DNA from: a virus
IMG/VR virus record: IMGVR_UViG_3300042549_005319
Span: 1 to 38,022 of that record
DNA length: 38,022 bases
Direction: 5' to 3' (one strand)
Positions within the stretch are counted from its first letter, which is position 1; every line of letters begins with the position of its first letter. Below the pieces are notes generated by a model. It was given only the letters and a program-made list of their open reading frames with translations, made no database searches and had not been told where the DNA came from. The translations under genes and the position numbers were made by a program. Shown here one piece after another: positions 22,427 to 36,971 of the stretch.

Positions 22427-23191
22427 ATGCGCAAACACATACTGAACGCGATCCAGGCGCACGCGGCGGCCGAGTACCCGAAAGAGTGCTGCGGGCTTTT
22501 GCTGGCGATCGGACGCAAGCAGCAATACTTCCCTTGCATCAATGTCTCGACGGAGCCGAACGAAGAGTTCCGAATCGACCCGGAGGAATACGCGGCAGCC
22601 GAGGACATCGGCGAGGTGATCGGCGTTGTGCACTCGCATCCGGACGCCACCAGCAGGCCGTCACCGCGTGACCTCGCCATGTGCGAAGCAACCGCCATGC
22701 CCTGGCACATCCTGAGCTGGCCCGAGGGCGATCTGCGCACCATCGTGCCGACCGGCGAAGTACCACTGCTGAAACGGCCATTCGTGCACGGCGCCTGGGA
22801 CTGCTGGCAGGTCTGCGCCGATTGGTACAAACGCGAGTGGGGGCTGGAGTTCGAAGCGTTCAAGCGCGCCGACGGCTGGTGGGAGAGCAAGGACAACACC
22901 AGCCTGTACGAGGCGAACTACGAGGCGGCCGGGTTCTACCGGGTCGACCGGCCGCAGCGCGGCGACATGATCGTCATGGAGGTGGGTCGGACGGTTTACC
23001 CGAACCACGCGGGGATCTTCCTCGGCGCCGATCCGGCACTGCCTGGCGAGGATGCCGCGACGTTCGGCCCCGGGCCGTTCCTGCTGCATCACCTGTATGG
23101 CAAACCGTCAGAGGTCATTGTCTTCGGCGGGCCTTGGCTCGACCGGACACGCTTGATTCTTAGGCACAGGGACGCACAAATTACCACTTGA
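22427..23191 (+). CDS. Tail tip protein K: JAMM plus NlpC/P60 domains
   Basis: 254 residues. N-terminal JAMM metalloprotease: E20 and H69-S-H71 with seven residues then S79 and D82, an exact HxHx7SxxD. C-terminal NlpC/P60 cysteine peptidase: C126 in WDCWQ, H194 in NHAGIF and a later His at 221/222. Lambda gpK has the same two-domain form and is needed for tail tip assembly; its peptidase may cut the peptidoglycan during entry. Both active sites look intact. In lambda, gene I follows directly; here a 2.6-kb insert intervenes. Confidence 0.92.
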   Translation: MRKHILNAIQAHAAAEYPKECCGLLLAIGRKQQYFPCINVSTEPNEEFRIDPEEYAAAEDIGEVIGVVHSHPDATSRPSPRDLAMCEATAMPWHILSWPEGDLRTIVPTGEVPLLKRPFVHGAWDCWQVCADWYKREWGLEFEAFKRADGWWESKDNTSLYEANYEAAGFYRVDRPQRGDMIVMEVGRTVYPNHAGIFLGADPALPGEDAATFGPGPFLLHHLYGKPSEVIVFGGPWLDRTRLILRHRDAQITT

Positions 23192-23216
23192 TGCGGCATG
23201 GCCGCCGGAGATTTAT

Positions 23217-23453
23217 ATGCAACAAAGCTACGCGATGACTATACAAAACCTGTTCACGATCGACGAAGGAGTCTTGTCTGGAGGAGTCGCGGAAATTGCG
23301 ATCCTTGATGGCTCACTCGAAGTAGACCGAGTTAAGCTTTCAGGGAAGGTTGGCCCCGGTGAAAGTGTTTATCGCCGCGAGTACATAGGCAAGCCGGGGT
23401 TGAGGGCCGAGCTTCTGACAGAAGTTGGTCAGATCACATTTACGGCGATCTGA
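23217..23453 (+). CDS. Small hypothetical protein, first gene of the K-I insert
   Basis: 78 residues with GGAG six bases before ATG 23217 (ATG 23232 is a second option). Mostly short strands (VAEIAILDGSLEVDRVKLSG, LRAELLTEVGQITFTAI); no motif recognised. It follows K by 25 bases on the same strand and is convergent with the next gene. AT-richer than K. Function unknown. Confidence 0.6.
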   Translation: MQQSYAMTIQNLFTIDEGVLSGGVAEIAILDGSLEVDRVKLSGKVGPGESVYRREYIGKPGLRAELLTEVGQITFTAI

Positions 23454-23462
23454 CCTCGAAAG

Positions 23463-23675
23463 TTAGCCGCGCGGCTCTTCCTCTCTGATGAATTCATCTG
23501 TGCCTGGAAGGTGGAAGATGTAGCTGACTTTGTAGCCCTCTCCCATGGTCCGCGCTCTTGCCTCTGCATCAGCTTTTGTGGGGAATGCTCCTACCATGAT
23601 GTTTGGCTCGTCACGCACCACACCCCATGTGTAGATCCAATCCTTTTTGCTCTGGGCATATTCTTCGTTGCTCAC
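23463..23675 (-). CDS. Small reverse-strand hypothetical protein
   Basis: 70 residues from GTG 23673-23675, chosen because GGAGG lies six bases upstream on the minus strand; the longer frame to 23816 has an unlikely Pro/Arg-rich lead with no ribosome site. The protein looks like one strand-rich domain (WIYTWGVVRDEPNIMVGAFP then KADAEARARTMGEGYKVSYIF). It converges with the gene at 23217, leaving 9 bases between their stops. Family not recognised. Confidence 0.6.
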   Translation of the reverse strand: MSNEEYAQSKKDWIYTWGVVRDEPNIMVGAFPTKADAEARARTMGEGYKVSYIFHLPGTDEFIREEEPRG

Positions 23676-23715
23676 TTCGACCTCCAGGTCATAAACGCGC
23701 CGAGATTGGCGCAAT

Positions 23716-23748
23716 CCCAGTCCTTGGGCTTGCAGGCAAAGGACTGGG
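23716..23748. repeat. 10-bp perfect inverted repeat
   Basis: CCCAGTCCTT at 23716-23725 and AAGGACTGGG at 23739-23748 with 13 bases between. It lies upstream of the reverse gene at 23675 in the gene-free stretch 23676-23902, so it could be an operator or a hairpin in that gene's leader. No T-run follows on either strand. Confidence 0.5.
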
Positions 23749-23835
23749 GAATCCGTTGCGTGAGGGCAGGAGGCTACTATCGGAGGTCGGCGGGGCGTTA
23801 CTGGCATTCCGTCCACCCTGGATGAGTAGACAGCC

Positions 23836-23863
23836 TTGTCTTAAAAAATCATATCAGTATGCT
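23836..23863 (+). promoter_or_regulatory. Candidate promoter for the gene at 23903
   Basis: TTGTCT (23836-23841) and TATGCT (23858-23863) are 16 bp apart, each four of six matches to consensus, in an AT-rich patch about 40 bases before the start codon. This would let the insert be expressed independently of late transcription. Confidence 0.45.
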
Positions 23864-23902
23864 GGCTAAAGGATGGCGCGGTGAACGATAGGAATTACGG
23901 AT

Positions 23903-24322
23903 ATGGGTTTTTTTAGTTTCATCGAAGCGATTGGTAACGGTCTGGATTCAGCCCTTCGAAGCGCTATCTCCGTAGGCGATGACGTAGTTGGAGTCGTTGG
24001 CAATGGGGCACAAGCGGTTGAAGATAGTATTAAGGAAAATCCTGTTGCTGCTGTGACGGTAGCCGCTATTGCGACAGGGGGCCTGGCGTTTGTCGCCGCG
24101 CCCGCGATTGCGACTGCGATTGGCAGCACGGGACTTCTTGGCGCTGCAAGCACTGGCACTGCCATTAGCACGCTGACAGGCGCCGCAGCTACGAATGCAT
24201 CACTGGCTGCGCTGGGTGGCGGTGCACTTGCTGCCGGCGGTGGTGGCATGGCTGCCGGAGCCGTAGTAGTTGCGGGTACAGGCGCCGCAGTGGGCGGAGG
24301 AGCTGCGCTAGCCGTCAGCTAA
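23903..24322 (+). CDS. Ala/Gly-rich hydrophobic protein, likely membrane active
   Basis: 139 residues. A short amphipathic lead (MGFFSFIEAIGNGLDSALRS) is followed by at least three hydrophobic Ala/Gly segments (about 48-70, 78-100, 105-135) with GxxxG-like packing. There is no signal peptide or lipobox. AGGAA lies upstream of the ATG, its own promoter is likely at 23836, and a strong terminator follows. Such proteins in prophages can be superinfection-exclusion or pore-type factors, but nothing here is diagnostic. No homologue recognised. Confidence 0.65.
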   Translation: MGFFSFIEAIGNGLDSALRSAISVGDDVVGVVGNGAQAVEDSIKENPVAAVTVAAIATGGLAFVAAPAIATAIGSTGLLGAASTGTAISTLTGAAATNASLAALGGGALAAGGGGMAAGAVVVAGTGAAVGGGAALAVS

Positions 24323-24344
24323 TTGGCATATGCATTCGTTAAGT

Positions 24345-24368
24345 GCCCGGCCCAGCGCCGGGCTTTTT
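24345..24368 (+). terminator. Intrinsic terminator
   Basis: Stem GCCCGGC / GCCGGGC (24345-24351 with 24357-24363), loop CCAGC, five T. Closes the unit of the gene at 23903. Confidence 0.9.
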
Positions 24369-24441
24369 CATTTCCGTCCGACCCGGTACCATCGTGGATT
24401 CTCTGCCGATAGGAGTGACCTGAGATGCGTGTCCATTCATC

Positions 24442-24717
24442 TCAACACAAATCCTCGCTCTCAGCTTGGGCATCGGAGCCGTCAAACAGCTCAAGAAGCA
24501 TCTGATCATGGGCCTTCTGAGAAGCTGAGTAGAGCATGCATCGGTCTAGAAGGATTGTCTTCATTCTGCGAGCCGAGCCCATGTGCTTGGGGTCGACTGA
24601 GATCGTCGCAGTCTTGCCGCTCCGGGTATCGGTGACTTGCAGGTTGTAACTTCCAATCAAGCCGTCATCCCGCTTGGTGTGTCCGAGGCATTTGAATGAG
24701 AGAGTGGGCTCTGTCAT
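24442..24717 (-). CDS. Small reverse-strand hypothetical protein
   Basis: 91 residues from ATG 24715-24717 (GGAA upstream); longer in-frame starts would read through a hairpin at 24739-24757. The protein has a strand-rich first half (YNLQVTDTRSGKTATISVDP) and a helical acidic C-terminus (HDQMLLELFDGSDAQAESED). Function unknown. On the opposite strand at 24411 lies an orphan ribosome site and start codon, suggesting an earlier + strand gene was replaced. Confidence 0.55.
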   Translation of the reverse strand: MTEPTLSFKCLGHTKRDDGLIGSYNLQVTDTRSGKTATISVDPKHMGSARRMKTILLDRCMLYSASQKAHDQMLLELFDGSDAQAESEDLC

Positions 24718-24738
24718 ACCATTCCATATTGATTGAAG

Positions 24739-24763
24739 GCCCAGCGCAGCGCTGGGCATTTTC
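24739..24763 (+). terminator. Hairpin with T-run, + strand, no gene before it
   Basis: Stem GCCCAGCGC / GCGCTGGGC (24739-24747 with 24749-24757) followed on the + strand by ATTTTC. The only + strand start upstream is an orphan (24425). On the minus strand it also lies just after the gene ending at 24803 but has a poor T-run in that direction. Confidence 0.6.
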
Positions 24764-24802
24764 GTTTCTGATACGCATGAAAAAATACGAATCAGACTTG
24801 AG

Positions 24803-25264
24803 TTAGTAGAGGCGACGATCACGCCGCTTGATGCGACTCCGATACTTCAGCATTTCGTCCACTCTTGTTGACGTTACCAGCCAAGCGAGTTCAAAAATTA
24901 GAAGCGGGATGCCTGTCAGTGAGGCATAGAGAATTGCCAAAATGTAGTTCTTTTGAGTCACGGGCGGGGCAAATCCGAAGCTCAACACACATCCCGCTGC
25001 GTTCAAAATGAACAGCGTTAGCATGGCGTAACTCAGCGCGATCTCCCGGTTAATCTTTGCGCTGTCGAATCTAGCGGCCTTGATACGTTTTAAGTCCTTA
25101 AGCTTCCGGCCTCGGAAAAAAGATCGAATGCGGCCCTTAGCTCCGGCGAGCATAGCGTGAACCGCACTGTGCGATGAGCGATACAAAAATTGAAGTAGAA
25201 ACCCTGTGAGCGCGGATACAGCACTGCTTATCCAAAATTGAGGGTTTGTTGTCCATTCTTCCAT
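24803..25264 (-). CDS. Reverse-strand inner-membrane protein, three spans
   Basis: 153 residues from ATG 25262-25264, with GGAAG upstream on the minus strand; the longer frame to 25453 would overlap the divergent lipoprotein gene. Membrane segments at about 10-27 (FWISSAVSALTGFLLQFL), 78-98 (YAMLTLFILNAAGCVLSFGF) and 108-130 (YILAILYASLTGIPLLIFEL); a strongly basic cytoplasmic loop (RSFFRGRKLKDLKRIKAAR) and tail (YRSRIKRRDRR). No family recognised. Divergent from the lipoprotein gene with 103 bases between starts, so both may be expressed in the lysogen and act at the envelope. Confidence 0.65.
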   Translation of the reverse strand: MEEWTTNPQFWISSAVSALTGFLLQFLYRSSHSAVHAMLAGAKGRIRSFFRGRKLKDLKRIKAARFDSAKINREIALSYAMLTLFILNAAGCVLSFGFAPPVTQKNYILAILYASLTGIPLLIFELAWLVTSTRVDEMLKYRSRIKRRDRRLY

Positions 25265-25367
25265 GAGTGCTTCCGCTGGTTGTAGGGTTTTCAATTGGCT
25301 TGGGGTAGGTTCGAGATGCTGCACGGTCAATGCTACAGTACGCACCATTTCCACAGGAGTGACCTGC

Positions 25368-25712
25368 ATGAAATTGATCGTAGGAGCGGTGGCGGTAGCG
25401 CTGTTGGCGGGGTGCTCAACCCCAAGTGATTTGAAAAAGAATCCTCCGTCCATTAGCGCAAGCTCAAAGAAGTCTCCGAAGCAATATGCTCTGTGTGTTC
25501 TCCCTAAATGGCAGGAGTCCCGCTCAGCATCGACTATGTCTGAAACCGAGAACGGCTACCGCTTGATCGTGGCTACAGATATTTCGGCTGATGAAGTGCT
25601 TGAGGTAATCAGCATCGGTTCGGGAAGCAATGTGTCTCTCTACCAGAGAATGCCATGGGCAAAAATGGTGGGACGAGGAGCGATCGAGGACGCAGTCCGA
25701 GACTGTTTGTGA
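25368..25712 (+). CDS. Small lipoprotein (moron)
   Basis: 114 residues from ATG 25368 with AGGAG and a repeated AGGAGTGACCTG leader. Signal peptide residues 1-15 with lipobox LAGC (lipidated C16); Ser at +2 favours the outer membrane. The mature part is a small mixed domain (KQYALCVLPKWQES, NGYRLIVATDISADEVLEVI). Phage lipoproteins placed beside tail genes, such as Cor, often block receptors against superinfection; this is a possibility from location and topology only. Own terminator downstream. Confidence 0.75.
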   Translation: MKLIVGAVAVALLAGCSTPSDLKKNPPSISASSKKSPKQYALCVLPKWQESRSASTMSETENGYRLIVATDISADEVLEVISIGSGSNVSLYQRMPWAKMVGRGAIEDAVRDCL

Positions 25713-25727
25713 CACGCTTAAATTAAA

Positions 25728-25753
25728 CAAGCCGCCAAATGGCGGTTTTTTTT
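25728..25753 (+). terminator. Intrinsic terminator
   Basis: Stem CCGCC / GGCGG (25732-25736 with 25741-25745) extended by flanking A-T pairs, loop AAAT, then eight T. It closes the K-I insert directly before tail gene I. Confidence 0.88.
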
Positions 25754-25769
25754 CGTCAGGAGTAAATGC

Positions 25770-26366
25770 GTGATGTCGGCGACAGCTTCGAATCCATTGA
25801 TGACTACGATTCTTCTCTCTGGGCCATTGGCGAGAGTATTCGGTCGCGTGCATCTGCGGGAGCTCAACAGCAAATCTGTAGGTGAGGCATTTCAGGCCTT
25901 GAAATGCACGATTGAAGGGTTTGAAGGCGCGATAAAAGATTTGGATCGTCGCGGAATGCGGTTTGCAATTTTCCGGAACCGGAAGAATGTTGGTGAGAAG
26001 GACTTTACGCTGGGTGGCGCTCAAGAGATTCGGATCGTTCCGGTGATCTCGGGTAGCAAGCGAGCGGGCGTCCTTCAAACGATCATCGGCGTCGTGCTTA
26101 TCGCCGCGTCGTTCTTTGCTGGCGGCGCTGGGCCTTCGCTGTTCTCGGCCGGTCTCGCAATGACTGCTGGCGGTGTAATCCAAATGCTCAGCCCCCAAGC
26201 CTCAGGCCTGAAGCAAAGCGCATCCCCCGAAAACTCGCCGTCCTACGCCTTCGGTAGCGCCAAGAACACCACGGCCAGCGGCAACCCGGTACCGATCTGC
26301 ATTGGCGAGCGCCGTTGGGGCGGGATGATCATTTCTGCGTCGATCCTAGCTGAAGACAGAGTTTGA
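25770..26366 (+). CDS. Tail assembly protein I
   Basis: 198 residues (GTG 25770 or ATG 25773, AGGAG upstream). Lambda I pattern: TTILLSGPLARVFGRVHLRE, then SVGEAFQALKCTIEGFEGAI, a hydrophobic hairpin at about 108-135 (VLQTIIGVVLIAASFFAGGA) and a C-terminal GNPVPICIGERRWGG. Gene I lies between K and J in lambda-like phages and is needed for tail tip assembly but is absent or scarce in virions. It is separated from K by six inserted genes and from J by one. Confidence 0.9.
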   Translation: MMSATASNPLMTTILLSGPLARVFGRVHLRELNSKSVGEAFQALKCTIEGFEGAIKDLDRRGMRFAIFRNRKNVGEKDFTLGGAQEIRIVPVISGSKRAGVLQTIIGVVLIAASFFAGGAGPSLFSAGLAMTAGGVIQMLSPQASGLKQSASPENSPSYAFGSAKNTTASGNPVPICIGERRWGGMIISASILAEDRV

Positions 26367-26416
26367 CATAACTACTTATGGTCGGAGATCTTTGCATCTT
26401 TCTCAGGGAGGAAGCT

Positions 26417-26890
26417 ATGAGCAGCGATGTGTTGATCTATCGATACAGTCCTGGTTTTCCGTGGAGTAAGAGGGCAGGAGTCGACATTCCCGTGCCTTGT
26501 AACGAGCCAGATGAAAGCGTTTTAGCAATCAAGTACGTCTTTTGGCCACATGAAAAATCAGATGGTGGCGCTTTTGACTCTGGAGGCTTGGTGTTTGAGG
26601 TGTGCGGCTGGTTCAAAACAATAAATCCTGAGGGCGAGGCTAGCTGGCGTTTGAGTTTCAGCAGGGCGGTAGAGGCACCCGCAACTGTAGGCGGGTTGTT
26701 TTTGAAGAGAGATATCAATAACGCCGGCAGTGTGAATAATCTTTTTTCACAAAATACAGTCTTTGATGTAAAGGGTTTTCCGGCAGAGTCTGTAAACGAA
26801 ACCTATTTATCAATTGATACGGCCAAGAAGGGAATGTCGCTTTTCTACGGTATTAGGGCCGAGTTTATTACTGTGAGGATCGAGCAGTAA
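26417..26890 (+). CDS. AT-rich insert between I and J (moron)
   Basis: 157 residues from ATG 26417, with a strong AGGGAGGA ribosome site; the earlier ATG 26378 has none. Strand-rich protein with FPWSKRAGVDIPVPCNEPDE, then VLAIKYVFWPHEKSD and a C-terminal LFYGIRAEFITVRIEQ; no signal peptide. Base composition is clearly lower in G+C than I and J. TG-A-CATAAC at 26365-26373 could be an extended -10. A terminator follows at 26908. The family is unknown to me. Confidence 0.7.
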   Translation: MSSDVLIYRYSPGFPWSKRAGVDIPVPCNEPDESVLAIKYVFWPHEKSDGGAFDSGGLVFEVCGWFKTINPEGEASWRLSFSRAVEAPATVGGLFLKRDINNAGSVNNLFSQNTVFDVKGFPAESVNETYLSIDTAKKGMSLFYGIRAEFITVRIEQ

Positions 26891-26907
26891 TTGCTTAATG
26901 ACTTTGC

Positions 26908-26929
26908 ACCCGCTTCGGCGGGTTTTTTT
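26908..26929 (+). terminator. Intrinsic terminator with UUCG loop
   Basis: Stem ACCCGC / GCGGGT closed by TTCG, seven T after. Identical over 29 bp (26908-26936) to the terminator at 11870-11898. It directly precedes gene J's ribosome site. Confidence 0.92.
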
Positions 26930-26945
26930 ATGCCTGGAGGAAAGC

Positions 26946-29900
26946 ATGGGCGCAGCGGAACAGATGGAAATCCATGGCGAGAAGGGCGGCAGCAGCAAGC
27001 CTAAATCGCCGACCGAAGCCAGCGACAGCCTGCGCTCGACCAACTTGGCAAAGCTACTTATCGCAGTGGGCGAGGGTGAGTTCGACAGTGTCCCGACCGA
27101 TTACGACATCTACTTGGACAACACGCCGATCCGCGATGCCAGCGGCAACTACAACTTCCCGAACGTGAAGTGGGACTGGCGCCCGGGCTCGGTGGATCAG
27201 ATGTACATCCCTGGCATTCCGGCGGTAGAGAACGAGACGTCGCTGAACATTGAGCTGCGCAGCGATTCTGCGTGGGTGCGCTCGATCACCAATACCCAGC
27301 TTTCCGCCGTGCGCATGCGTTTGGCTTGGCCAGCGCTGCAGAGGTCTGATGACCGCGGTAATGTCGGCGGTTACCGCATCGAATACGCGATCGACGTGGC
27401 CACCGATGGCGGCGCCTATCAGCAGGTGCTGGTGGATGCAGTCGACGGCAAGACCACCACGCGCTACGAGCGCTCGCGCCGCATCGATTTGCCAGACGCC
27501 GCCACTGGCTGGCAGATCCGCGTACGCCGCCTCACGCCAAACCAGAACACCAACAAGATCGCCGACACCATGCTGGTGGCCGGTTACACCGAAGTCATCG
27601 ACGCCAAGCTGCGCTATCCGAACACCGCGCTGCTTTACATCGAGTTCGACGCCGAGCAGTTCACCAACATCCCGGCGGTGACCGTGAAGTGCAAGGCGCG
27701 GCGCTGGATGGTGCCGAGCAACTACGACCCGATCCTTCGCACCTACACCGGGACGTGGGACGGCTCGATGAAATCGGCCTGGACCAATAACCCGGCGTGG
27801 ATCACCTACGGTATCTGTACTGAAGAGCGCTTCGGCCTGGGCAAGCGCATCAAGCCGTTTATGGTCGACAAGTGGGAGCTGTACCGCATTGCCCAATATT
27901 GCGACCAGTTGGTGCCGAACGGACTGGGCGGCCAGGAACCGCGCTTTCTCTGTGATATGAACCTGCAGGGCAAGGCTGATGCCTGGTCGCTGCTGCGTGA
28001 TATCTCGGCGATTTACCGGGGCATGACGTACTGGGCGCAAGGTCAACTGGTGATGCAGGCAGACATGCCGCGCGCGCAGGACTTCGACTACGTCTTCACC
28101 CGGGCAAACGTCATCGACGGCAAGTTCTCCTATGGCAGCGCCTCGGCGAAAACCCGTTACACCCGAGCGCTGGTCAGCTACGACAATCCGGCGAACAACT
28201 ACGACACCGACGTGATTCCGTTCGCAGACCTGGATCTGCAACGCCGCTACGGCGACCGCCCGACAGAGCTGAGCGCCATTGGCTGCACCCGCGCATCCGA
28301 GGCCCAGCGGCGTGGCAAGTGGGCGATCCTCAGCAACAACCAAGACCGCACCGTTTCGTTCAAGACTGGTCTGGAAGGAGTGATCCCACTGCCGGGCCAT
28401 ATCATCCCGGTGGCGGATTCGCTGCTGGCTGGTCGTGAAGTGGGCGGCCGAATCTCGGCGGTGGCGGGGCGGGTGATCACGCTCGATCGCGACACCCAGG
28501 CTAAGGCCGGTGATCGTCTGATCATCAACCTGCCGGGCGGACGCGCCGAAGGTCGCACCGTGCAGAGTGCCAGCGGCCGCGCCTTGACCGTCACGGTCGC
28601 CTACAGCGAACCGCCGGTGGCGCAGTTGCAATGGGCGCTCGACGCCGATGACCTGGCCATTCCGTTGTATCGCGTACTGCGCACCAAGCGCACCACCGAG
28701 GGCGATTACGAAATCAGCGCGCTCCAGTTCGAGCCGAGTAAGTTCGCATTCATCGACACCGGCGCACGCCTGGAAGAACGCCCGATCAGCGTGATCCCGA
28801 TCACTGTTGTTCCGGCGCCGGCGAGCGTTTCGCTGTCGTCGACTTCATCGGTTGTGCAGGGGCTGGCCGTGGCCACCATGACCATCAGCTGGCCCGCCGT
28901 GGATGGCGCGGTCGGCTATGACGTGGAGTGGCGCAAGGACAGCGGCAACTGGATCAAGCTGCAGCGCACCGGCATGACCAACGTGGACGTCGTCGGCATC
29001 TACGCTGGCGCTTATGTGGCCCGGGTTCGCGCGGTGAGCGCGTTCGACATCACGTCGCCGTGGCGAAACTCGATCCTGACCAACCTCAGCGGTAAACAGG
29101 CGCTGCCCCCGGCGCTGGCGTTCTTGACCGCGACGCCGCTGCTGTTTGGCATCTATCTCAAGTGGGGTTTCCCTGCTGGCGCCGAGGACAGCCAGCGCAC
29201 GGAGATCTGGTACGGGCCGACGACTGATCTAGAAGCCGCAACCAAGCTGACAGACCTGGCCTATCCGCAAAGTGATTTCTCCATGCTCGGCCTGCGCGCC
29301 GGCGTGACCTTCTACTTCTGGGGGCGAATCGTCGACAAGATCGGCAACATCGGGCCGTGGTATCCGATCGGCCTCGGTGTGCAGGGGCAATCCAGCTCCG
29401 ATGCTGCTGCCATTCTGGAGATGATCGCCGGGCAGATCACGGAAACAGAGCTTGGCCAGGACCTTCGAGACGAGATCGACAAAATCCCAGGCTTGCAGGC
29501 GCAGATCGATGCGCTTGACGGATTGAAGGGGTACGACCCCGAAGCCACCTACGAAGAGTACGACCTGGTGGTGCAGGGAAAGCGGATCTACCAGGCCACC
29601 GGCCCTGTCCCGCTCAACATGCCGCCGCCGAACCCGCTGTACTGGCTCGACGTTGGGCAGACCGTTGAAAGTGCAAACGGCCTGGCCCAGCAAGTGGCGA
29701 CCAACACCGCCGAGATCATCGAGATCGACGGCGTTGTTACTGCCCAGGCAACGGCCTTCGAAGCCCTTCGCGCCTCTTACCGAGACGATGACGGCGCTGG
29801 CGATCTCGCGGACGCGATCAAAAGCTACACCAGCACCGCTTCGCTTGCGTCCGAATCGAAGGTTCGAGCCTCTGAGAACGAGGCAATGGCAAGGCGCGTA

Positions 29901-33273: not shown

Positions 33274-34014
33274 CTATTTGAGAAATAATAATTTCTTGAT
33301 GGAATCAGTAAGGCTAAGGCCTTGGTGTATATAGAATGTGTTTGTTGTTGGCCCATTCATCGGCAATAACTTGTTTTCATCGTGATCATAACGTCGTGCA
33401 ACATATCCCAATGATTTCATGATTGTGGATACGTTGTGCCAATCTGAGTTTTCTACCATTATTATTGGCTTCGAGCGCTCGATTGTTCTTTTTAATCCGC
33501 GAAGAACCATCGACTCGGCGCCTTCGACGTCAACCTTAATTAGGTCGGGAGATAATTTTAAATCATCACCAACCCTCAAGTCGCATTTGACCTTCTCCAG
33601 CCTTGTAAGCCCGCCGCGCTCCAAGAATTTTTGCTTGACCCAAGGTAGTTCGTAGTATGAGTCTGTTATAGAAGCCTCTTCTATGAAGGCCTCTTCGTTT
33701 GAATATGGTATGTTTAAATAAAAGCTGCCCCCTTTATCGGCTAGGCCGTAGGGGTTTATTTCTATGTTTCCGGGTACTTCGCTCGCCAGGCTATTTAGTT
33801 CGTCTATAAGTATGGGGTTTGCTTCATACGAGTGAATGGTCGCGTCTGGAAAAAGTATTCGGAAGGATATAATGCTTTGGCCAAGATTTGCACCTATGTC
33901 GAGTATTGTGTTGATGCGTCTTGAGCCTATTGTGAAACCATAAAAATCAGTGTCATGAACTTCTTTGGTTTTCCATCGTTGCATCACTGCTTCTGATAAG
34001 TGCTTTAGTTCCAT
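33274..34014 (-). CDS. FkbM-family methyltransferase (moron)
   Basis: 246 residues. SAM-binding motif I is DIGANLG (D39-G45), followed by SYEANP (about 62-67) and the post-motif KVDVEGAE (D162, E164, G165), the signature of FkbM-type O-methyltransferases. These often methylate sugars. The gene is AT-rich, reversed between the fibre and lysis modules, and lacks late-operon context, so it is probably expressed in the lysogen. Methylating an O-antigen sugar would change the phage receptor; the substrate is not visible in the sequence. Confidence 0.88.
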   Translation of the reverse strand: MELKHLSEAVMQRWKTKEVHDTDFYGFTIGSRRINTILDIGANLGQSIISFRILFPDATIHSYEANPILIDELNSLASEVPGNIEINPYGLADKGGSFYLNIPYSNEEAFIEEASITDSYYELPWVKQKFLERGGLTRLEKVKCDLRVGDDLKLSPDLIKVDVEGAESMVLRGLKRTIERSKPIIMVENSDWHNVSTIMKSLGYVARRYDHDENKLLPMNGPTTNTFYIHQGLSLTDSIKKLLFLK

Positions 34015-35541: not shown

Positions 35542-36222
35542 TCATCCGACCGGGTTGATCAGGTCCGGACCTTGGTTGCGGACATTCCCCACCGCCCGGT
35601 CAACCTTGAACCACTCAAAAACTTCTGTCGGCTCGCCCTGGTGCAGCACCATCTGTTCGGCGCGCTCTTTCGGCGTGGCCGGATCCAGCCATTCACGTGC
35701 AAGTTCAGGCGCTAGCGCTACCGGCCGCCGATCATGGATGTCGACCATCCCCCCGGCACTATCTGCGGTGATAATCACGAAGCCGTCGTGTTCGCTGGGA
35801 ACATGCTCGTTATTCGGGTATTGGCCGATTGCGGCGCATAGAATGGGTGAGCCATCCCGGTGCCGGATCAGGTAGGGCTGCTTTTTCGGGCCACCTTCGT
35901 CAACCCACTCGAACCAGTTGTTGATCGCGATGATCGCACGGTGCGGCCAAATCGCACGGAAGAACGGCCCGTGGGCAACTTTCTCTACGCGGGCGTTGAT
36001 TGGTGCCGCACGGTCGTTGGCCCAGTGCGGGCGCCACCCCCACCGCACCATATCGGCGTGGAGGAACTCACCCTCTTGGTGAAACAGCGCCAGCTGAGAC
36101 GTAGGCGCCGCGTTATAGCGCTCCAGTGGTTGTTCGTTGACAGTGCTGATCAAGGCGTTCGGCATGCTGAGCGCCTCCACGAAGTCATGAATGCCACTGT
36201 ACTGGGTAAGTCGTCCGCACAT
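35542..36222 (-). CDS. SRAP (YedK/HMCES) protein, abasic-site shield
   Basis: 226 residues from ATG 36220-36222, chosen because catalytic Cys must be residue 2 (MCGRL) and AGGAA lies upstream. C2, N37 (YNAAPTS), E105 (NNWFEW) and H163 (DIHDRRPV) are the SRAP active-site residues. SRAP proteins crosslink to abasic sites in single-stranded DNA through Cys2 and protect them. The gene follows another reverse gene by 23 bases, and a consensus LexA box precedes that pair, so it should be damage-induced. A possible prophage or host gene; the boundary is uncertain. Confidence 0.93.
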   Translation of the reverse strand: MCGRLTQYSGIHDFVEALSMPNALISTVNEQPLERYNAAPTSQLALFHQEGEFLHADMVRWGWRPHWANDRAAPINARVEKVAHGPFFRAIWPHRAIIAINNWFEWVDEGGPKKQPYLIRHRDGSPILCAAIGQYPNNEHVPSEHDGFVIITADSAGGMVDIHDRRPVALAPELAREWLDPATPKERAEQMVLHQGEPTEVFEWFKVDRAVGNVRNQGPDLINPVG

Positions 36223-36245
36223 TGCCAGTTCCTCGCATCGATCTT

Positions 36246-36971
36246 TCACCGTAGACCCGTTGGCACCGACTTCGTCACAAAACCTTTTCCTGCGCAGGTC
36301 GGACAATCCTCACGGGCATCAAAGCGATCGAGGCAGGCGGGGCACATGCAGAAGGCTGCCGACTCAATGTGCGGCCGCACCTTTTCAAAGGTGCGCAGAT
36401 CCCGTTCTTCATGCGCGACTTGCGCTGCATCTATAAGCGCCCGGTAAACATCAGCATCGGAAATTGGGCGGTGCGTCACGCCGGCGATCATCCGTTCGGT
36501 CTCTACCAACTGATATCGGCGACCATTCATTTCCAGCACCAAGCCTGAAATCTGTCCAATCTTCGGAGAAAGACCCAGAGTCAACCGAACACCATCCGCA
36601 TCAGAGTAGACCTTGCCGTCGTAGGCGAAGGAAGCGCCGCGTGGTTCATCACTTTCGAAGTTGAAGATTGACCGGCTGATCGTGCCCAGCAGGTCACCGT
36701 TGTCGATCTGAACGACATCATAGGTAGAGGCGCCGCGGTAGTGCCCGGGGGAGTTCTGCAGCTCCTCGACGGCGTGCCAGTACCCGGCGTCTGCCATTTC
36801 GTTCATGTCGAACTGCTCAAGCTGGTCGATCAGTCCCTCCTCGCGGAGCGTGGCTGTCATCTCATGAAGAGTTGCCCGGTGGCCTTCCGGGTTTTGCAGG
36901 CGGAAGTCCTGATCGTCGAGAGTCGTTCGCCATCGCTGGAGCCGTAGGGTTTTCGCTTGATCAAAATTCAT
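36246..36971 (-). CDS. Hypothetical protein with zinc-ribbon C-terminus, SRAP partner
   Basis: 241 residues. The N-terminal two thirds are mixed (RLQNPEGHRATLHEMTATLR, SRSIFNFESDEPRGASFAYD, GLVLEMNGRRYQLVETERM). The end has CMCPACLDRFDAREDCPTCA (about residues 206-230), a four-Cys zinc ribbon with DnaJ-like CPTCAGKG. The start at 36971 is 25 bases from a LexA box and the stop is 23 bases before the SRAP gene, so the two form an SOS operon. No family recognised; association with damaged DNA is inferred from context only. Confidence 0.75.
   Translation of the reverse strand: MNFDQAKTLRLQRWRTTLDDQDFRLQNPEGHRATLHEMTATLREEGLIDQLEQFDMNEMADAGYWHAVEELQNSPGHYRGASTYDVVQIDNGDLLGTISRSIFNFESDEPRGASFAYDGKVYSDADGVRLTLGLSPKIGQISGLVLEMNGRRYQLVETERMIAGVTHRPISDADVYRALIDAAQVAHEERDLRTFEKVRPHIESAAFCMCPACLDRFDAREDCPTCAGKGFVTKSVPTGLR

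Follow-up and report, generated by a model that had tools for sequence, protein, structure and literature searches.

In lambda, the tail gene I comes closely after K. Cargo genes between tail genes are an already known kind: gp15 of HK97 is located as such a cargo gene, and Cor is a phage-encoded small envelope protein near tail genes. Prophage defence hotspots have reportedly been described by Rousset in 2022. In the Pseudomonas aeruginosa phage JBD26, Tab is an 83-residue protein that is encoded on the minus strand behind its own promoter and protects the lysogen, while its late partner anti-Tab, encoded on the plus strand, protects the phage (PMC10884400). Where the same paper mentions HK97 gp15, it cites this gene as a superinfection-exclusion moron, and Cor of N15/phi80 is listed among exclusion proteins elsewhere (PMC11436027).

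We analysed a stretch of 38,022 nt (hereafter the window), which is a virus record of a lambda-like Pseudomonas prophage. Both K (22427-23191) and I (from 25770) were identified by Pfam and PHROGs. The 2,578 nt separating them contain six genes, three on the plus strand (o1, o3 and o6) and three on the minus strand (o2, o4 and o5); coordinates and ORF calls agree with an earlier note on this DNA, which had described an island of 2.6 kb with three genes on each strand between K and I. Other phages have relatives of o1, o2, o4, o5 and o6 at this very site, and bacterial chromosomes have relatives of o3, so that none of the six should be taken as a chance ORF. The same note had given the island terminators and its own promoter. 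For the terminators this holds, as three good hairpins were found on the plus strand: an intrinsic terminator-like hairpin behind o3 (24345..24363), a second one 79% like it (24739..24757) and a third behind the lipoprotein gene o6 (25729..25748). Over positions 23000-27000 the terminator sites number 9, against 4.4 (sd 2.3) expected, and, as for morons and hotspots, terminators stand around the cargo. The promoter was not borne out, with 0 found in a consensus search against 2.2 expected.

For the comparison with relatives we considered 80 viral contigs chosen for the closeness of their K (>=91% identical) to that of the window; the site could be measured in 75 of these, giving 76 loci with the window. 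The K–I gap ranges from 423 to 4,658 nt, and in none of the 76 loci are K and I adjacent. The site is the same while the genes in it differ among close relatives, as expected of a hotspot, and the K–I cargo varies from phage to phage. The cargo was sorted into 136 families, a number inflated by greedy ORF calling (F7, F11, F18, F21, F22, F26 and F42 look spurious). The site is also filled with genes in the isolates phiAH14a, Medea1, D14H and YMC11/02/R656. The island represents a single state of a cargo site that is hypervariable among lambda-like Pseudomonas prophages and belongs to their tail module. This site resembles the prophage defence hotspots in being a fixed site with exchangeable genes, anti-phage ones included, in related phages, and differs from them in the phage group, in the site and in the common leader element behind which the cargo lies. 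The gap between I and J is a second variable one, with 58 to 1,154 nt across the same 76 loci; in the window it covers 26367-26946 and has as its cargo o8 (26417..26890, plus strand), of 157 aa and without a family match. The sizes of the I–J gap in relatives were seen to be stepwise (58, 204, 421, 496, 549, 595 and 992 nt).

The first two genes of the island form a convergent pair. The gene o1 (23217..23453, plus strand) encodes 78 aa of the PHROG38193 family in the late direction, and o2 (23463..23675, minus strand) encodes 70 aa of the PHROG4280 family from a GTG start behind GGAGG. A longer ORF for o2, reaching 23816, was rejected as the gene in favour of this start. Among the K-selected contigs, o2 lies convergent behind o1 in 13 of the 13 loci with o1 (L024 was counted here as a duplicate of L020). 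Searching separately with o2 yielded 60 loci, in part contigs already in the K-selected set, of which 47 have a convergent o1, one is at a contig end and 12 are without a recognisable o1. Wherever o2 occurs with this kind of tail and the locus is testable, o1 is present (47/47), with K ranging from 39 to 94% identity; in the 12 loci without o1, none of the compared tail genes was detected. The pairs sit at three gaps, namely K–I, I–J and the one between the tail chaperone and tape measure genes, and occur also in YMC11/02/R656 and D14H. Distances of o1 and o2 are correlated (Spearman 0.38, reached in 0 of 1000 permutations), those of o2 and K less so (0.16, 5 of 1000). Hence o1/o2 is an obligate convergent pair, whose members track each other's divergence more closely than either tracks that of K.

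In other phages (L302, L303, L304, L309 and L328; mEp237 of E. coli, 42933-43459), a relative of o2 comes after a co-oriented gene of 72-81 aa, which by eye resembles o1. Compared with o1, these upstream genes gave a hhalign probability of 5% (P 0.008) and a HMMER E value of 0.24, with a decoy at 0.08, too weak to establish them as relatives of o1.

The pair resembles tab/anti-tab in layout, size and strand alone: in both, a small gene of the late region is on the minus strand and always adjoins a late partner on the plus strand. The differences are that Tab has 83 aa and is encoded between the terminase genes, while o1/o2 lies between tail genes.

Immediately upstream of o2 we found a conserved leader (23676..23760, minus strand), comprising two predicted hairpins, a Shine-Dalgarno sequence and a start codon mostly at a fixed distance; a second conserved block (23761..23835, minus strand) lies upstream of it and is less widespread, being found in 8 to 23 of 80 loci. 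The leader, of about 70 nt, is present in 46 of the K-selected sequences (the window included), always on the minus strand and in most cases 32 nt ahead of the start codon, and the genes behind it are many different, unrelated small genes of that strand. When loci were picked by an exact 24-mer pattern of the leader, at least 119 stretches were obtained, some of them in phages whose K is just about 40-45% identical to that of the window. The leader was further found in 45 of 299 sampled Pseudomonas genomes, with K close by in 22 of the 30 that were inspected, and in L267, L269 and L271 it occupies the chaperone-tape measure gap. Both the leader and o1/o2 occur in this gap, and HK97 gp15 is likewise cargo among tail genes; the HK97 genes are, as far as known, other ones, and exclusion by the island genes is putative.

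The leader folds into two hairpins (z -2.6), and the ribosome site may lie in a third. The proposed stems hold 0 changes on both sides and pair no better than shuffles, the 5′ arm is broken in four loci (L054, L035, L051 and L099), and Rfam gave no match over the element at E<=1. A structured RNA leader is therefore not claimed, since the sequence folds well but lacks covariation and has this arm broken in the four loci. The element may serve in control at the RNA level, in protein binding or in recombination.

A second leader belongs to o6 (25368..25712, plus strand), which encodes the lipoprotein that the earlier note had recognised among the island genes: 114 aa, a lipobox LAGC, a place in PHROG914 and a weak match to LPAM_1. 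Its leader (25345..25414, plus strand) consists of a ribosome site and signal-peptide DNA and is common to two unrelated families of mature lipoproteins, found behind it in 46 and 28 loci. Over 69 nt, 40% of the cross-family pairs are at least 85% identical, while the flanks average 25-27%, which is the chance level. A lipoprotein gene lying directly before I and ending within 250 nt of it was found in 74 of the 76 loci, and it is the sole gene called in the six shortest K–I gaps. Because it is near-constant before I and both families have the leader in common, we consider o6, which lies in the late-gene direction, as tail-module background with a reused leader. It is not cargo in the strict sense, being a near-constant neighbour of I and not an acquired conversion gene or moron. 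As a small envelope protein near tail genes o6 is like Cor; it differs in being near-constant and no moron, and the PDB gave no confident sequence or fold match for it. Relatives of o6 were seen in two other places: in phiAH14a (L092, 2904-3942) one lies close to the repressor, apart from that phage's K-I site, with an annotated tail assembly protein gene after it, and a second, matching the mature lipoprotein (41%), stands in a stretch of a Pseudomonas genome (L235:2243-2512) where neither K nor I was found.

The Ala/Gly-rich hydrophobic protein of the earlier note is o3 (23903..24322, plus strand; 139 aa). It matches component A of the PADLOC candidate defence system PDC-M09 (PDC-M09A, 4.9e-14) over the hydrophobic domain alone, which is a composition-biased domain; at 139 aa it is not full length, and the partner genes are not beside it. 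What o3 has in common with PDC-M09A is that domain, and what it lacks are the chromosomal neighbours, a WYL-type regulator and a gene of about 550 aa. In Pseudomonas chromosomes the relatives of o3 are short single genes or domains of proteins mostly of 290-400 aa, and a WYL-type regulator, assigned by reading the sequence by eye and not by a domain search, adjoins these longer relatives in at least one inspected locus (L233). A search for o3 in viral contigs found nothing.

Of the remaining two genes, o4 (24442..24717, minus strand) encodes 91 aa of a family present in 9 of the measured loci, and o5 (24803..25264, minus strand) encodes a membrane protein of 153 aa. Three spans had been proposed for the latter; hydropathy supports two clearly, whereas the third, N-terminal one is weaker and seen by eye, and the poor structure model does not decide on it. 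The two genes occur together in L034/L085 and L050/L087, and elsewhere o4 is without o5. The window's plus-strand segment 24345..24422 has counterparts (about 75-82% identity) in other loci, where they immediately precede the lipoprotein leader; here 0.9 kb separate it from that leader, and it is probably a remnant from the insertion of o4/o5. Membrane proteins of family F43, with a layout like that of o5 by eye, were seen at the site in L028, L051 and L276, and G020 and G021 gave matches of 28-31% over the C-terminal part of o5.

Among the genes recognised at the site in relatives are AbiTii (1.9e-35), HEPN_AbiU2 (5.1e-16), Imm_superinfect (3.1e-18), a SocA-like antitoxin (1.4e-18) and a TIR-type effector (1.5e-8), and the further cargo includes an HSDR_N protein, a YafO-like toxin and a Rha-type regulator. 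In the island itself a search with defence models matched no gene except o3, and Pfam gave no match to PF14373 (superinfection immunity), which is present just in the relative L081 and the family member L049. Owing to the genes that relatives carry, the site as a class is likely anti-phage in function; this does not extend to each gene here, and for the present copy such a role is a candidate one. The proposal of superinfection exclusion or conversion cargo thus is well supported as regards the probable anti-phage content of the site and falls as regards the lipoprotein as a conversion gene, since this is near-constant before I. Similarly, "envelope-directed" products suit o5 and o6, and possibly o3, but the o1/o2 pair, with products that look soluble, is the best candidate for a function in the island.

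From what was observed of the site, its variability, its modules, the o1/o2 pairing and the anti-phage genes of relatives, we infer a mechanism of recombination, a timing of expression and the functions as follows. The cargo would be swapped by recombination between two short stretches of conserved sequence, namely the leader that precedes o2 on the minus strand and that of the lipoprotein gene, as suggested by the conservation of these leaders against variable neighbours. The minus-strand genes o2, o4 and o5, which oppose late transcription, would be expressed in the lysogen, where their products would work against incoming phages or to the host's benefit, and the plus-strand genes o1, o3 and o6 would be made late alongside the tail genes. 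In the lysogen, o2 might block phages that resemble this one in tail or assembly path, and late o1 might protect the prophage's own progeny. Taken as a whole, this combination of a hypervariable cargo site, recombination at leaders, strand-timed expression and a defence-plus-antidote pair is in our judgement the best explanation, with a probability slightly better than even. If it is right, o1/o2 would be a small, testable example of a prophage defence that brings its antidote along. Were the antidote obligate, a relative of o2 would not be expected to stand without a recognisable o1, as it does in the 12 other phages, unless the tails there are insensitive.

The cargo could alternatively alter the host envelope or physiology in a way unrelated to other phages, that is, act in host-directed lysogenic conversion. 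The membrane protein o5 and the lipoprotein o6 would suit this role, and most cargo families have no defence match, but the recognisable genes of the site are mostly of anti-phage or toxin-antitoxin types; we regard host conversion as unlikely, though it carries some weight. It is less probable still that o1/o2 and the lipoprotein serve not in defence but as late accessories of this tail type, in the virion or in its assembly. Their position in the tail module, the late direction of o1 and the lipoprotein directly before I in nearly all loci are what one would expect of accessories, whereas o2 on the opposite strand, the lack of o1/o2 in most relatives, its movement among three gaps and its weak tracking of K divergence are not.

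Similarly low is the probability we give to o1/o2 being a toxin-antitoxin module by which the prophage is stabilised: the small size and obligate pairing of the two genes are consistent with it, as is the presence of SocA-like and YafO-like genes in relatives at this site, but the pair gave no toxin match and is convergent, whereas type II modules rarely consist of convergent, separately transcribed genes. Finally, the cargo might be selfish or neutral and kept by recombination at the conserved leaders without constant benefit. We consider this improbable, since, although the leaders are conserved at the DNA level with variable genes behind them, the reading frames are intact and conserved and the members of o1/o2 co-diverge.

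Going beyond the defence-plus-antidote explanation, we tentatively propose, as a conjecture with a rather small chance of being right, that the minus-strand leader is a dedicated, conserved plug-in element, acting in cis as RNA or DNA, by which single small anti-phage genes are swapped into tail-module gaps across quite different tails and come under the same control, o1/o2 being a new defence-plus-antidote pair of that class. In that case, a leader common to unrelated genes would offer a handle on the exchange and control of cargo, and the K-I, I-J and chaperone-tape measure gaps of Pseudomonas prophages could be mined for anti-phage genes by means of one 24-base sequence. In the open-access literature searched we found no paper on this site, although one may still exist, and no description of the reusable leader or of the obligate o1/o2 pair. 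The island had been put forward as a candidate for an undescribed system, which is too strong for the whole of it, as cargo of a known kind.

Two other genes of the window, both on the minus strand, were noted. One (35542-36306) encodes a SRAP/HMCES-type protein (PF02586, 5.9e-46), and the other (33274-34014) an FkbM-type methyltransferase (PF05050, 2.6e-11), which is a possible conversion gene.
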